Source: Tomocerus qinae
Taxonomy: Eukaryota; Arthropoda; Collembola; Entomobryomorpha; Tomoceridae
Length of the DNA stretch: 64,000 bases
Direction: 5' to 3'
Assembly (NCBI GenBank): GCA_020055645.1
Contig: CM034547.1
Span: forward strand, 3,658,001-3,722,000
Translations under genes and position numbers: made by a program
Notes under the pieces: generated by a model
The model's input: only the letters and a program-made list of their open reading frames with translations
Database searches by the model: none
What the model was told of the DNA's origin: nothing
Part shown: positions 13,817 through 60,515 of the stretch, in pieces
Layout of the letters: every line of letters starts with the position of its first letter
How positions within the stretch are numbered: the first letter of the stretch is position 1

Positions 13817-14656
13817 GGCTGAATTTAGGCAGCGGTACTTTGTTGCCACTGTCCCCGCTGTCGCCGCTGTTGCCGCTGGGAGGTTTGGGGGGTTAGCGGC
13901 AACAGCATAATAGCGGAGACAGTGGCAACAGCGGCAACAGTGGCGACACACAAAAACCACTGGTGGCAACAGCGGCGACACAGCTAAAACCACTGGTGGC
14001 AACAGCGGCGACACAGCTAAAACCACTAGCGGCAACAGAGACACATTGGCTGAATTTAGGCTGCGGGATCTCGTTGCTGCAATTGGCCCCGTTGCCCCAA
14101 GTTAAGCCAATTAACCTATCGTCTTTTCCATTTGCATCCCGTCACTATTTTTGCATCTTTTTTGACCTAACCTAATTAAAAATAAACATGCTACATTTTT
14201 GTTTATTTTTTATTAGGTTAGGTCAAAAAGAGGCAAAAATAGTGACGGGAGGCAAAATGTTAAAGTAATAGGTAAAGTGAAGCATGGGGCAACGGGGGCA
14301 ATTGAGGCAACGAGATCCCGCTGCCTAAATTCAGCGGACACATTAATCTGATATCCTCTGTTGCCGCTGTTGAGCATTGAGCTCAGAGCAGCAGTGCACT
14401 GGCTTAGGTTTAGCGGCAACTGAGGAAATCAGATTAATGTGTCTCTGTTGCCGCTAGTGGTTTTAGCTGTGCCGCCGCTGTTGCCGCTAGTGGATTTTGC
14501 GTGTCGCCGCTGTTGCCACCAGTGGTTTTTGTGTGTCGCCACTGTTGCCACTGTTTCCGCTTTTATGCTGTTGCCGCTGACCCCCCTTACCCCCTAGTGG
14601 CAACAGCGGCGACAGCGGGGACAGTGGCAACAAAGTACCGCTGCCTAAATTCAGCC
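13817..14656. mobile_element. 840-bp foldback element with nested inner copy and 8-bp flanking duplication
   Basis: Both ends are near-perfect inverted copies starting GGCTGAATTTAGGCAGCGG and continuing through Cys-codon-poor GTTGCCGCTG-type repeats for roughly 100 bp. The same terminus recurs inside, at 14048 and (inverted) at ~14335, giving a smaller foldback within the larger one. TTTATTTC stands directly outside both ends, consistent with an 8-bp target duplication, although the flanks are themselves (ATTTCATATTT)n repeats. There is no transposase, so it is non-autonomous. Confidence 0.75.
14048..14335. mobile_element. Inner foldback copy, with a TTAGGTTAGG-type motif in its stem
   Basis: The inner ends are GGCTGAATTTAGGCTGCGG on the left and the complement on the right. 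The arms continue inward through CCCGTCACTATTTTTGC and GACCTAACCTAATT, pairing almost to the centre near 14194. The stem includes CCTAACCTAA / TTAGGTTAGG, the arthropod telomere-type pentamer. Confidence 0.65.
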
Positions 14657-15063: not shown

Positions 15064-16571
15064 TCAATCCGTTGGTGGAGGAGCAGACCCGTCACCGGGT
15101 GGAGATCCATCGCCGGGTGGAGGCGGAGATCCATCGCCTGGTGGAGGCGAAGATCCATCGCCGGGTGGAGGCGGAGATCCATCGCCGGGTGGAGGCGAAG
15201 ATCCATCGCCGGGTGGAGGCGAAGATCCATCGCCGGGTGGAGGCGGAGATCCATCGCCGGGTGGAGGCGAAGATCCATCGCCGGGTGGAGGCGGAGATCC
15301 ATCGCCGGGTGGAGGCGAAGATCCATCGCCGGGTGGAGGCGGAGATCCATCGCCGGTTGGAGGCGGAGATCCATCGCCGGGTGGAGGCGGAGATCCATCG
15401 CCGGGTGGAGGCGGAGATCCATCGCCGGGTGGAGGCGGAGATCCATCGCCGGGTGGAGGCGGAGATCCATCGCCGGGTGGAGGCGGAGATCCATCGCCGG
15501 GTGGAGGTGGAGATCCATCGCCGGGTGGAGGCGGAGATCCATCGCCGGGTGGAGGCGGAGATCCATCGCCGGGTGGAGGCGGAGATCCATCGCCGATTGG
15601 AGGTAGAGATTCATCGCCGATTGGAGGTAGAGATCCATCGCCGATTGGAGGTAGAGATTCATCGCCGATTGGAGGTAGAGATCCATCGCCGGTTGGAGGT
15701 GGATATCCATCTTGTGTTTCATCTTCAATTTCTAGAGCATTATCTTCATTTTGGGCAGATGGAAATTTTCGCCTATTCGTTGAACTTCCGGTGGGTCCAA
15801 TAATAGCTATAACCACATTTAAAATTTATTAGTATTCAGTATTCACTGCCACTATCAACAAACCCTAACATTGCACCCGTCGAAATAATAAGGGCACCCA
15901 TTACCATGTTACAGCTGTACAAAGAAATACCGGAACGGGAGTACTGTTCACATATAGGGCACAGCTAAATAATAATGGCTAAATGTGAATTCGTTCACAC
16001 AATTCTTTATTATCCCGTAAATGTGGAACAATAAATTATAAAATGCACCCCTAGTGCCCATAGGAATCAATACATCTTTAGTTTAGATTAGGTTTTTCGA
16101 TTTTTAATCTTTTTGACAATTTGAATTTGGGATTGCCGTGCCCTCCGGACCCCCTCTAGATACGTGCCTGCGCGTCGGTACTCCGTATTTGAAAACTGAA
16201 ACTACTACCGAAAAATATTCTTTCTTGGGTATTTCCCATTTGCACTCCGGTATACTGCCTGATATCTTCAGTATACACATAGCATGATTAGCATGATGTA
16301 CCCGTGTTGGCATGTTTATATATAATTATAATTAACTACTGTCCAAATGTCGAATTCGTCTCTTAGCATTTTTTACCTCCGTATAAGTGACTCGGCTTCC
16401 AAATCGATTTGTGTGTATACTGCAGCGGGTTCGGTATCGGTTTAAGTACTCCGTGCTGTACATAACTCGGTTGTCGAGGGATTTGAGAAATGAAAACATG
16501 TTCTCCTACTGCTGGATCGGGTTCGGGTTCACCATTTACTTCTACAGGTCCTAGTCCCGATAGTAGTGTTC
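15064..16571 (-). CDS. Secreted-cluster protein with PPPPGDGS octapeptide repeats (5' exon missing)
   Basis: Two exons are seen, 16571-16377 and 15806-15064, joined in phase 1 (TACGGAG|GTAAAA to TTATAG|CTATTA). The first encodes a 64-residue non-repetitive stretch (TLLSGLGPVEVNGEPEPDP, later SQIPRQPSYVQHGVLKPIP). The second begins AIIGPTGSSTNRRKFPSAQ, has an acidic linker, then about 25 copies of an 8-residue unit (PPPPGDGS, with early variants LPPIGDES and LPPIGDGS), and ends SAPPPTD and TGA. The first exon starts in phase 1, so a signal exon further upstream is expected but was not found. The repeats should form an extended, acidic polyproline-like chain. No family is recognised. A cuticular, silk-like or adhesive role is a guess from composition and neighbours. 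Confidence 0.6.
15090..15700 (-). repeat. 24-bp coding minisatellite (PPPPGDGS)n
   Basis: About 25 head-to-tail copies of a 24-bp unit (plus-strand form GGCGGAGATCCATCGCCGGG with GTGGAG-type ends). Central copies are almost identical, differing mainly at GGC(G/A)GA. Copies at 15590-15700 are more diverged, so the array seems to have homogenised from the 3' side. Three frames are open because the unit is a multiple of 3. Confidence 0.85.
16156..16170. mobile_element. Solo right terminus of the hAT-like MITE family
   Basis: CTAGATACGTGCCTG preceded by a C-rich run (CCGGACCCCCT), matching the right end of the complete copy at 49764-49940. No left terminus is recognised nearby. Confidence 0.45.
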
Positions 16572-27920: not shown

Positions 27921-28096
27921 GGATCTGGGATACTTTTGGGCATCTGCACGTGCTCAAAAGTATCCGGATACCTTTGAGCACCATGGAAAAGACATAACCT
28001 AACATAACCTAACCTAACCTAACCTAATATTTACCAGGAGAGTTCAAAGGTATCCCGACACCTTTGAGCACGTGCAGGTGCTCAAAGGTATCCCAC
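27921..28096. mobile_element. 176-bp inverted-repeat element carrying telomere-type CCTAA repeats
   Basis: Flanked on both sides by ATGAAAA (27914-27920 and 28097-28103), a likely 7-bp target duplication. The diverged uninterrupted copy of the locus at ~27738 reads AATGAAATTGACCCC, which supports an insertion. Arms of ~55 bp pair: GGGATACTTTTG and GCACGTGCTCAAAAGTATCC on the left, GGATACCTTTGAGCACC-type complements on the right. The centre (27993-28027) is (ACATAACCT)(AACCT)n. Confidence 0.65.
27993..28027. repeat. Interstitial TTAGG-type repeat tract
   Basis: CATAACCTAACATAACCTAA followed by further CCTAA units. TTAGG is the usual arthropod telomere pentamer. The tract is only ~35 bp and sits in the loop of an inverted-repeat element. 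Confidence 0.75.
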
Positions 28097-55518: not shown

Positions 55519-57874
55519 ATGTATTTAGAAATAGTGTTTTGTCTTTCGGCTGTTGTTGTTCTACTGCTATATTTTCAAAAGCGACCTCAGCGATTTCCGA
55601 AAGGTATTTAGTACAAATTGGCATTTTAACATATTTACTTACGAGGCACTTATATGCTCAATGCTTATCATTACTCTACTATAATAATTACTGATATAGT
55701 TGCCTACACCGAGGCAGGACAGACGAAAATATAAATAAATAAATGATATACAAATCCATTTATATGTTTGTATGCTCATACCATTGTTATTACTGCCTAT
55801 CTCTGTCTCCAAAGGTGCATATAGTTAGTCATTATATTAATAGTTTATGAATAAATTAAATCAAAACTGTTTTATATGATTTAAAAATTATGGATTTTCA
55901 TTTTCATGTCCTATGTCTCCCATTTTCACGTAAAATGCTGTATACGTGTGTAAAAGCGAGTAGTATAAAATAAATAAGAGCTTTTTACCTTCCTAGGTCC
56001 ATTTAGTTGGCCTGGGGTTGGCAATTTATTGCAACTAGGATTGGAAGCACACATCTCTTTGTCAAATCTGAGAGACATTTTTGGCAGTATTGTCGGAGTG
56101 GATTTTGGTAGTCGAAGGGTAGTTGAAAATATCTCAATACCTACTAAAATGTTTTACTTGTTTCTAAAAAGCTATTGTGTCATTTACAGAGCTATTGTTT
56201 CATTTACAGAGCTATTGTTTCATTTACAGAGCTATTGTTTCATTTACAGAGCTATTGTTTCATTTACAGAGCTATTGTTTCATTTACAGAGCTATTGTTT
56301 TATTTACAGAGCTATTGTTATTCATGACATCAAGCAAATAAAGGAAGCGTTTAATTTGCATGCACTCTCCGGTCGGCCAAGTGTTAGACATTTTGGAGAA
56401 ATTACTACCGGAATTAATCGGGGTTAAATGCACAAGAATCTTTTATGTCTTATTAATTTTGTTTTATTTAAAGGCATCTTTATGAATTATGGTGTTATAT
56501 ATTTAGGTTTAGCCTTTTCATCTGGCAAGCAGTGGATGGAGCAGAGAGGTTTCATTTTAAAAACTTTGGGGACTTTTGGCCTCGGTCGCCATTCTAAAAT
56601 GGAGAGTCTTATCCATCAGGAAATTCAAGAACTGATCAAAATATTTGAAACGGAAATGGGCAGTCCTATAAACACAGACAAAATATTTTACGTGTCCGTG
56701 CTCAATTCTCTATGGACAATTGTCACTGGAGAGAGATTAGAGACGAGTGACCCAAAAGTTAGAAAGATAATTGACCATTTGTCAAGGTAAATTAACACAA
56801 AACGTTTTATACATGCAGAAAGGAGGAAAAGTAAGGACATTGAATTTTTACATCCAGTTACATGAGATCGCCGAAAGCTTTTGGGACTCTGATTTTCTTT
56901 CCTTGGTTCGGTACTCTGATGCCTAAATTATCGGGATATAACAAGGTCGTTGAGAATGTGACTGCTGTACTGGGTTTCATCGAAACTTTCATTGACTCTC
57001 ATAAAGAAACGTATGAAGAGGGCACAAAAAGAGATTTGATCGATTGTTATTTGGACGAAATCAAAAAGTCAGCTGATCCCAACTCCAGTTTTTATAAATC
57101 TGCAGGAGGTAACATTTGTTTTGAATTTTTATGTTAGACTACTTTATTAAAAACATGTCGCTGTGCTCACAGAAAGTAACATGCTACATGGACTTCACGA
57201 TTTATTCGTCGGTGGAACGGAGACAACATCTACTAGTTTGGCTTGGACATTTTTCTTGTTGGCCCATTTTCCTGAAAAGCAAGAGAAACTCTTCCAGGCT
57301 ATTGACAATGTCGTAGGAAAAGACAGACTGCCGTCGTTTGAAGACAGGAAAAGGTACTTAGTCAATATTTTTACAATGCAGAAATATAAACAAGTCTGAA
57401 ACAATATTTTGTAATTGTGCTAGTTTGCCAATGGCTGAAGCTGTGGTGATGGAAGTGCTACGATTTACATCAGTCCTTCCCCTGGGGTTGGTGAGGGAGG
57501 CTTTAGAGGACTTTGAATTTCATGGCTACATCATTCCAAAGGGAACTTTAGTCAATGCTAATCAATTCCACGTCCACCACAATTTGGAAATCTGGGGGGA
57601 TGCAAATAATTTCCGTCCTGAAAGATTTCTAACAAAAGATGGATCTGTCAATACTCGACACGAAGCGTTCATTCCGTTTGGAACTGGAAAAAGAATTTGC
57701 CCTGGAGAAAATTTAGCTAGAGACCAGTTATTCTTGTTCATTACGAGTTTGGTTCAGCGATTCAAATTTTCATTCGATTTAAGAAATCCTATTCCTCCGT
57801 TGCGAAGCAAGTTGGGCACATCGTTCTTGATGCCAGCGGAGCACAAATTAGTTCTGACTAAACGTACATTGTAA
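55519..57874 (+). CDS. Cytochrome P450, CYP2-clan-like
   Basis: Seven exons: 55519-55603, 55997-56118, 56290(?)-56422, 56507-56786, 56858-57108, 57173-57353 and 57424-57874, about 500 aa. Seen: N-terminal membrane anchor (FCLSAVVVLLLYF) and basic RPQRFPKG hinge; PFSWPGVGNLLQLG; IKEAFNLHALSGRP; WMEQRGFILKTLG (helix C, WxxxR); the I-helix oxygen motif GGTETTS; ExxR in VVMEVLRF; the PERF region FRPERFL; and the heme loop FGTGKRICPG with the Cys thiolate. The enzyme would be an endoplasmic-reticulum monooxygenase acting on hydrophobic substrates. Exon 3 lies behind seven tandem copies of a 20-bp unit with a splice acceptor. With the phase-0 donor CGAAGG|GTAGTT, the acceptor nearest the exon (56310) breaks the frame, whereas the next one up (56290) restores it with seven extra residues. 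Confidence 0.85.
56171..56310 (+). repeat. Seven tandem copies of a 20-bp unit containing a 3' splice site
   Basis: Unit GCTATTGTTTCATTTACAGA, seven copies back to back, then a partial copy (GCTATTGTTA) that is the true start of P450 exon 3. Copies 2-6 are identical; copies 1 and 7 have one change each. Each unit carries a pyrimidine run and ACAG, so seven acceptors stand 20 bp apart (exon starts 56190, 56210, 56230, 56250, 56270, 56290, 56310). Confidence 0.95.
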
Positions 57875-58490: not shown

Positions 58491-60515
58491 ATGGCAAACC
58501 CTTATTTCATTTTAATCACATTTATTTTACTCCTGGGTTCAGCTGAAAATGCAATCGGCAAATCAGAAAACCGACTTGGAACAAATCAGGTACACCGTAC
58601 ACCCTTTCTCTTTAGATTTCTATTAGTATTTTTAATTTGTTTTGAACAATCTTCAGGTGAGATTTTTTATTCAATTTGTTTGGATAATGATTTGATCTTT
58701 TACATGCAAGTTCATACTCACGGCTATGACTCAATATACAATATCATAAGATCTCCCAGCTATTACTTGGATCATGGTGCAAGTTAAATGATACATGATG
58801 TAGAGAGTATTTCTATCCAGCAAGTGATTCACCCCCAAATTGTCAACACTATAGCCTTACCTAAAAGGTGTTGACAATTTGGGGTTCTCCCCCAGTAGTG
58901 CATAGGCATTGATAAATAATGTAGCAACAAAATATTCTAAAGGTAAGATTAGCTGCATTTTTATAAATCCATTCTGAGCTCAATTTCGTGTGATAGTGAT
59001 TTGATTTGTACAAATGTACGTATTTTAATGCGATTCTTTATTACGTATTAGGAAATAGACACAAAAACCTCAGGTGCAGGTGATACCGCTTGTAAAAATG
59101 CGTTTGAAGGATTTGGTGTTCATATGGGATCTATTGGTCACTTGATAAGGGCGAGTCCTCAACTGATAGAAGAATTAGCAGATACACTCTACAATGATTT
59201 ACTTTTGAGGCAGGTAAAAATTACATGGAAAGTATTCTACAGAAGTTGTTGGCTTTAGTTTAGTGGGACTGTGCCAAATAAAACAATTCTCATACAAATA
59301 TGTTGATAGTTTATGATTTTGTAATACAGACGTTTTCGAACATCATATGAGCCATTTTTTTCTCCTTCGGAAGATGTGTATGATATATCCTGTCAAAATC
59401 CCTTCAGCTGCACGTGGAACTTGATGCATAGGGCCATGGCAAAGTACCCGGATGCAACGTATATGGCTTCGATCTGGAGTCCGCCCTATTATATGAAAAA
59501 TGCAGGGGATGGGTTGAAGATTGAGTACGAGTCTAAATACTACCAGTACATCAAGAACATCACGGAACTGATAAAGTCAACATTTAACCAAACGATTGAA
59601 CTCGTTTCCCTTGTAAATGAGCCAGAGAACTTTGTTGTTAGTTGGGATCATTGTAATATGGGTCCACATCAGCTTTGCAGAATGGTGGAAACTTTTAACG
59701 ATCCTTTGGTGTCCGCCTGCACGGAAAATGCCTGGTTCTCCATTACAAATGTGTACATGGACTACAATAATGCAGGAGTCAGCTGTCGACGAGCTTGCAA
59801 GACAATTCTGACACATGCCTATGCAGTTAACTTCAATTTGTCATCGCCCGACTTCCTCTCCGCTTCCTACGACAAAAACGAATATCGCTCTAGATTTGAA
59901 CAACCGATTTGGCAGACTGAAGTCTCAAGCACTTATGGAAATGCACATCTGAATCAAATGGAAGAAGGCCTAACGTTGGCAAAGAACATCATCCAGTTTT
60001 TAGGAACAACTTGTGTCTCCAGATATTACTTTTGGATAGCTTTTACTTTTGGACATTCAGGAGAGTCTCTCATCTGGGCGGATGAAATTCAACAGACGCT
60101 AACCTTTCCGAAGAAATACTTCGTGTACAGACATTTCACGCTCGCCGACCACGAAAATCCCTACTCGAATATTAAGAGATGTGATCAAGACGTGTTTAGT
60201 GGACTCTGCCTTCAGTTTAGTAATACAAATAAGCAACAATCCACGTCAGTTTTTATCAATCAAAATGAAAATGCCACCTTTGCTGCTAATTTAAAAAGAT
60301 GTGACGTATTGTGTTGCACAACCAAGGAGAGTGATTACACTTGTGACTATGAAAAAGAAGCATTGATACCATCCTTATCAGTGTGCTCGTGCAAAACTGT
60401 AACAGAAGCGACTAGTACAACGGAAAGTTCAAATGGACATATAAAATTGAAACAAAGTTGTGCTATTTTGATAATTAATATCATTATTTTCTCTTTTCAT
60501 GTAAAATTATTCTAA
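58491..60515 (+). CDS. GPI-anchored GH30-type glycoside hydrolase (glucosylceramidase/endoglycanase-like)
   Basis: Three exons (58491-58589, 59052-59209, 59330-60515), about 480 aa. Signal peptide MANPYFILITFILLLGSAEN. Then KNAFEGFGVHMGS, the usual N-terminal GFG motif of GH30. Further on are WSPPYYMKN (WSPP motif); VSLVNEPEN with the acid/base Glu; IWQTEVSS with the nucleophile Glu; and a C-terminal beta-sandwich region (KYFVYRHFTLADHE). The end is Cys-rich (CDVLCCTTKE, CSCKT), then a Ser/Thr stretch and a hydrophobic tail (CAILIINIIIFSFHV) that looks like a GPI signal. Such enzymes cleave beta-linked glucose, xylose or similar from glycolipids or polysaccharides. The exon 2 donor that keeps the frame is a GC site (TTGAG|GCAGGT). 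The overlapping canonical CAG|GTAAAA would frameshift. It is either a GC-AG intron or a damaged gene. Confidence 0.7.
58833..58884. repeat. Perfect 17-bp hairpin in intron 1 of the GH30-type gene
   Basis: CCCCAAATTGTCAACAC (58833-58849) and its exact complement at 58868-58884, with an 18-base loop. Confidence 0.8.

Follow-up and report, generated by a model that had tools for sequence, protein, structure and literature searches.

A seven-fold tandem array of splice acceptors at the intron 2/exon 3 border of a P450 gene in Tomocerus qinae

Duplications of intron-exon borders have been described in amphioxus, whose globin genes carry minisatellite-like border repeats termed 'mirage' (PMC3087553). 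That report also cites border repeats in Adh3, with units of 10-72 bp, and gives copy numbers of 6 and 3 for different haplotypes of BflGb6. The inner units of the amphioxus mirages are homogenised while the outer ones are excluded, and splice signals often lie within the units. RT-PCR suggests that regular splicing is undisturbed by these repeats, and new introns have been suggested to originate from border-spanning repeats (PMC3087553). Several AGs likewise compete at one intron end in tandem acceptors of the NAGNAG or short-distance type (PMC2875228, PMC3250501). According to PMC2875228, the first AG is found by scanning and the proximal AG is used as the AG-to-AG distance grows; the distances in its minigenes were varied by a few nucleotides, and preferred distal AGs are also reported there. 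An intronic tandem repeat is also tied to splice choice in hTERT, where a VNTR of 38-nt repeats lies inside intron 6 and affects exon skipping (PMC8150890), whereas the array described here is located at an intron-exon border.

This array is a border-spanning minisatellite of the already known kind. It was found within 64 kb of the T. qinae genome (the window, i.e. the whole stretch of DNA that was analysed). Tandem Repeats Finder called a repeat at 56170-56319 with a period of 20, 7.5 copies and 98% matches. Together with a pattern search, this call resolves into seven 20-bp units of the consensus AGCTATTGTTTCATTTACAG (56170..56309, + strand), each with ACAG at its end, and a partial eighth unit of 10 bp (56310..56319, + strand), which at the same time forms the opening ten bases of conserved exon 3 sequence. 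The seven-fold array of acceptors at the intron 2/exon 3 border, as claimed in a preliminary description of this DNA, was thereby confirmed. Each unit combines ten bases from the end of intron 2 with ten from the start of exon 3, and the array spans the exon-intron border. The ACAG motifs offer exon starts at 56190, 56210, 56230, 56250, 56270, 56290, and 56310, and since every junction reads ACAGAG, an extra AG follows two bases downstream of each. A repeat at a 3' splice site is also known from the (TG)mTn tract of CFTR intron 8, but this tract alters exon inclusion and not the choice among acceptor copies.

As in the amphioxus cases (BflGb6, BflGb9, Adh3), the border is duplicated in tandem and AG signals are contained in the units. 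The likeness extends to the pattern of divergence, although the sample is small: units 2-6 are identical, while the outer two units (1 and 7) carry one base change each. The differences concern the host gene (a P450 instead of globin or Adh3), the unit length (20 bp compared to 150-160 bp in BflGb6 and 10-72 bp in Adh3), and the acceptors, which are complete in all seven units here but present in only some of the globin units described in PMC3087553. NAGNAG and short-distance sites differ in that here a complete acceptor module is repeated seven times at 20-nt intervals and shifts the frame. Narrower literature searches for repeated acceptors or border minisatellites (titles and abstract starts, with partly blunt wording) gave no match; a wider one led to PMC3087553. 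With up to three mismatches allowed, the unit pattern matched seven times in the window, always inside the array (0.02 matches expected from shuffles), and no second array was found elsewhere in the window by this search. Divisibility of the array periods by three was dropped as evidence as too weak: it applies to 7 of 16 window arrays (16 of 20 Tandem Repeats Finder rows, after overlapping ones were dropped), the 20-bp P450 array not being among them. Other repeats of the window include two arrays with unit lengths of 33 and 32 bp (13933-14038 and 14445-14549), whose consensuses look reverse complementary by eye, a 24-bp array of 25.5 copies (15101-15711) that is open on the + strand as GDPSPGGG repeats, and six to seven interstitial TAACC copies (27995-28027), which we take to be the arthropod-type TTAGG telomere repeat, a run that speaks against amphioxus as the host.

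The array sits in a seven-exon CYP2-like P450 gene on the + strand (55519-57874). Exon 1 (55519..55603, 85 nt) starts at the ATG, exon 2 (55997..56118) ends in phase 0 (CGA AGG), and the conserved part of exon 3 (AIVIHDIKQIKEAF...; 56310..56422) is followed by exons 4 (56507..56786), 5 (56858..57108), 6 (57173..57353), and 7 (57424..57874), the latter carrying the heme motif FGTGKRICPG and running to the stop codon. The five other introns are all GT-AG, and from exon 4 onwards the reading frame stays open up to the stop codon. The heme, ExxR, I-helix, and PERF patterns are hallmarks of P450s; all of them are kept in the protein, and no second lesion was found in its coding sequence. Three of five open frames tested from the gene matched PF00067 separately, and CYP2B, 2R1, 2E1, and 2C8 top the solved relatives among the best 60 of 318 matched sequences. 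A tblastn search found no second P450 in the window (best outside match, E 0.36). Scans with six peptide patterns, which detect close relatives only, gave one bacterial relative with 28% identity among genome contigs and none among viral contigs.

For scoring splice sites, matrices were built from 16 introns other than intron 2, located in the P450 gene and two neighbour genes. We take the latter to be DNALI1-like and PTGR1-like, with names and borders derived from human proteins. Pfam support for these assignments was limited to ADH domains in the PTGR1-like gene, one of them below the cut-off. A further open frame at 59325-60515 is GH30/GH59-like, with Pfam GH59 below the cut-off; with a threshold of E 0.001, 7n6h (AcXbh30A), presumably a bacterial protein, was its sole relative of solved structure. 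The intron 2 donor (AGG|GTAGTT; 56119..56124, + strand) is ordinary, with a score of 7.3 compared to 0.2 to 10.4 for the 16 other donors, each left out in turn. A weak donor-like GT after 56107 (phase 1, score -0.8) also has in-frame partners. This poor second donor, 11 nt upstream, and the intron 2 donor lie in an 11-bp near-repeat (9/11 identical; 56107..56128, + strand), but the duplication was judged to be due to chance, with 136 such adjacent pairs in the window. At the 3' end, the seven ACAG sites are of similar strength (8.0 to 13.4), as is typical of tandem 3' splice sites, compared to -0.5 to 11.9 for the 16 other acceptors. The highest score was obtained for 56310 (13.4), followed by the acceptors of units 2-6 (10.9 each) and the first ACAG, 56190 (8.0). 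The acceptors of 56272 and 56212, two bases further downstream, reach only -1.8 compared to 10.9 for the adjacent ACAG sites.

The sequence TACTAA (56142..56147, + strand) is branch-point-like; a strict YNYTRAY is absent from intron 2, and weaker branch-like motifs occur in most units, 23-27 nt upstream of the next ACAG. The next AGs downstream of TACTAA end at 56171 (AAAAAG, score -2.6) and at 56189 (the first ACAG, at 42 nt). AG scanning would favour 56190 (PMC2875228), while the site score favours 56310. This raises the possibility, which we regard as unlikely though by no means negligible, that all seven acceptors compete, with the first one or two downstream of the branch point prevailing. 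Most transcripts of the assembled haplotype would then be frameshifted and the output low, with 56230, 56290, or non-splicing yielding a minority of full-length product. All seven sites indeed score like real acceptors, and use of 56190 results in a 71-nt intron, a length within the 64-84 nt seen for four of the gene's five other introns. With the GGG donor, the 56190 product ends after 114 aa at a stop 95 nt upstream of the exon 3/4 junction, which would expose the transcript to decay according to the 50-nt rule. AG scanning and the preference for the proximal AG also point to competition (PMC2875228), but the minigenes in question span a few nucleotides and not 20, and distal AGs are sometimes preferred. 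Moreover, of all seven sites the first ACAG has the lowest score, and the amphioxus mirages are reported to be without effect on regular splicing (PMC3087553). Intron length was dropped as a guide to the acceptor, since the 16 other window introns are too spread (64-393 nt, median 110.5).

We next consider the coding side of the junction. Against the Pfam P450 profile, the insertion-free protein encoded with one G less scored 334.1 bits (positions 1-456 of 462), compared to 321.0 bits with seven and 314.7 bits with 27 additional residues. The insertion thus costs 13 and 19 bits, respectively, and the best Pfam stretch of the +27 product lacks the first 44 profile positions. The additional residues would fall in what we assume to be the first beta hairpin of the P450, and the insertion site is ungapped in the four CYP2B/2B4 alignments inspected. 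Judged from the sequence, a junction CGA AG|A GCT without inserted residues is the best fit to the family, in agreement with the ancestral junction suggested in the preliminary description. The donor reads GGG at 56117-56119, and exon 2 then ends in phase 0. Since the insertion-free junction needs an exon 2 that is one base shorter, it can fairly be inferred, as had been suggested before, that the donor carries one G too many. A donor with one G less scores 8.3 compared to 7.3 for the GGG donor, and a one-base error at this position would remove the frame puzzle. No frameshift was seen elsewhere in the ~3.3 kb of coding sequence of the three genes (825, 1020, and about 1480 nt), which counts against a sequence error, although the exon borders were chosen to keep the frame.

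Translation from the phase-0 donor at 56118 verified that only two of the seven ACAG starts are in frame, 56290 (+7) and 56230 (+27), with products of 500 and 520 aa that both reach the normal stop; the AG two bases past ACAG adds 56272 and 56212 as further in-frame starts. Splicing to 56310 leads, again as described before, to TGA as codon six, and the product ends after 74 aa. If the extra G is real, the gene could be a young pseudogene or null allele with a broken frame and an incidental array. The early stops after 74 and 114 aa (56310 and 56190) are consistent with this, but the heme, ExxR, I-helix, and PERF motifs and an otherwise intact coding sequence argue against decay, and we consider a null copy rather improbable. 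The unspliced frame through the array had correctly been reported to be open; its translation is 557 aa long. Shuffling left all three frames of the unit open in 2777, and the 51-nt prefix open in 4220, of 20000 trials each; multiplied, with one third for the phase, these rates give a chance of ~1%. This is unusual, but it is a rough product that assumes independence, and the feature was noticed after the fact. The open frame was therefore rejected as proof of lost splicing, and the unspliced reading is a possible minor product.

The preliminary description had further claimed that the array decides the P450 frame and that the repeated acceptors supply compensation for the extra G. Neither claim was borne out. 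A unit of 20 leaves a remainder of two on division by three, and therefore in-frame acceptors exist for any donor phase (two, two, and three of the seven for phases 0, 1, and 2, respectively). Rescue is thus automatic and says nothing about compensation. Furthermore, neither 56310, the best-scoring acceptor, nor 56190, the first ACAG, keeps the frame, and regular splicing is reported to be left intact by published border repeats of this kind (PMC3087553). A preference for 56290 or 56230 together with a real G would lengthen the P450 by 7 or 27 residues, and both products still score as P450. But the identical units 2-6 provide acceptors that score alike, so that 56290 and 56230 are not singled out, and the insertion lowers the profile score; such compensation appears quite improbable. 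More doubtful still is a eukaryotic contingency locus of splice acceptors, in which the first ACAG would be taken and the unit number, changing by slippage as is known for mirages, would set the frame: with the GGG donor, 2, 5, or 8 units would be ON and 7 OFF. The case for this switch is arithmetical, namely a unit that is not a multiple of three, and the frame would depend on the acceptor used.

By analogy to amphioxus, we put first, tentatively and at somewhat below even chances, a mirage-type minisatellite with 56310 as the authentic and mainly used border, and the extra G as a separate matter (an error or allele, or a null if real). The alternatives follow with falling likelihood: competing acceptors, then a null copy, then compensation, and last the frame switch by repeat number. 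The mirage-type minisatellite would have arisen by tandem duplication of the intron 2/exon 3 border and expansion to seven units, presumably by slippage or unequal exchange. The authentic border would be the last acceptor, 56310, which joins the conserved exon directly. Its score, the family fit, and the amphioxus precedent suggest that the spliceosome mainly uses this site and that the array leaves with the intron; it is because of this precedent that we put use of 56310 ahead of use of the first acceptor. In the true or common sequence, exon 2 would then most likely end in CGA AG, giving an insertion-free P450, while splicing to 56310 with a real extra G would produce a null copy. Several points count against the mirage-type reading. 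The given sequence has GGG, and 56310 is then out of frame; the coding sequence shows no other frameshift; AG scanning would favour 56190; the globin repeats are longer and carry splice signals in only some of their units; and the splice-site matrices are built on 16 introns.

Seven near-identical acceptors 20 nt apart represent a natural test of AG choice by the spliceosome, and since each choice results in its own length and frame, plain RNA-seq would show the preference. The array adds a further case of a border-spanning repeat, apparently outside amphioxus. If the frame depended on the number of copies, an animal protein would be switched by a repeat that acts through splicing.
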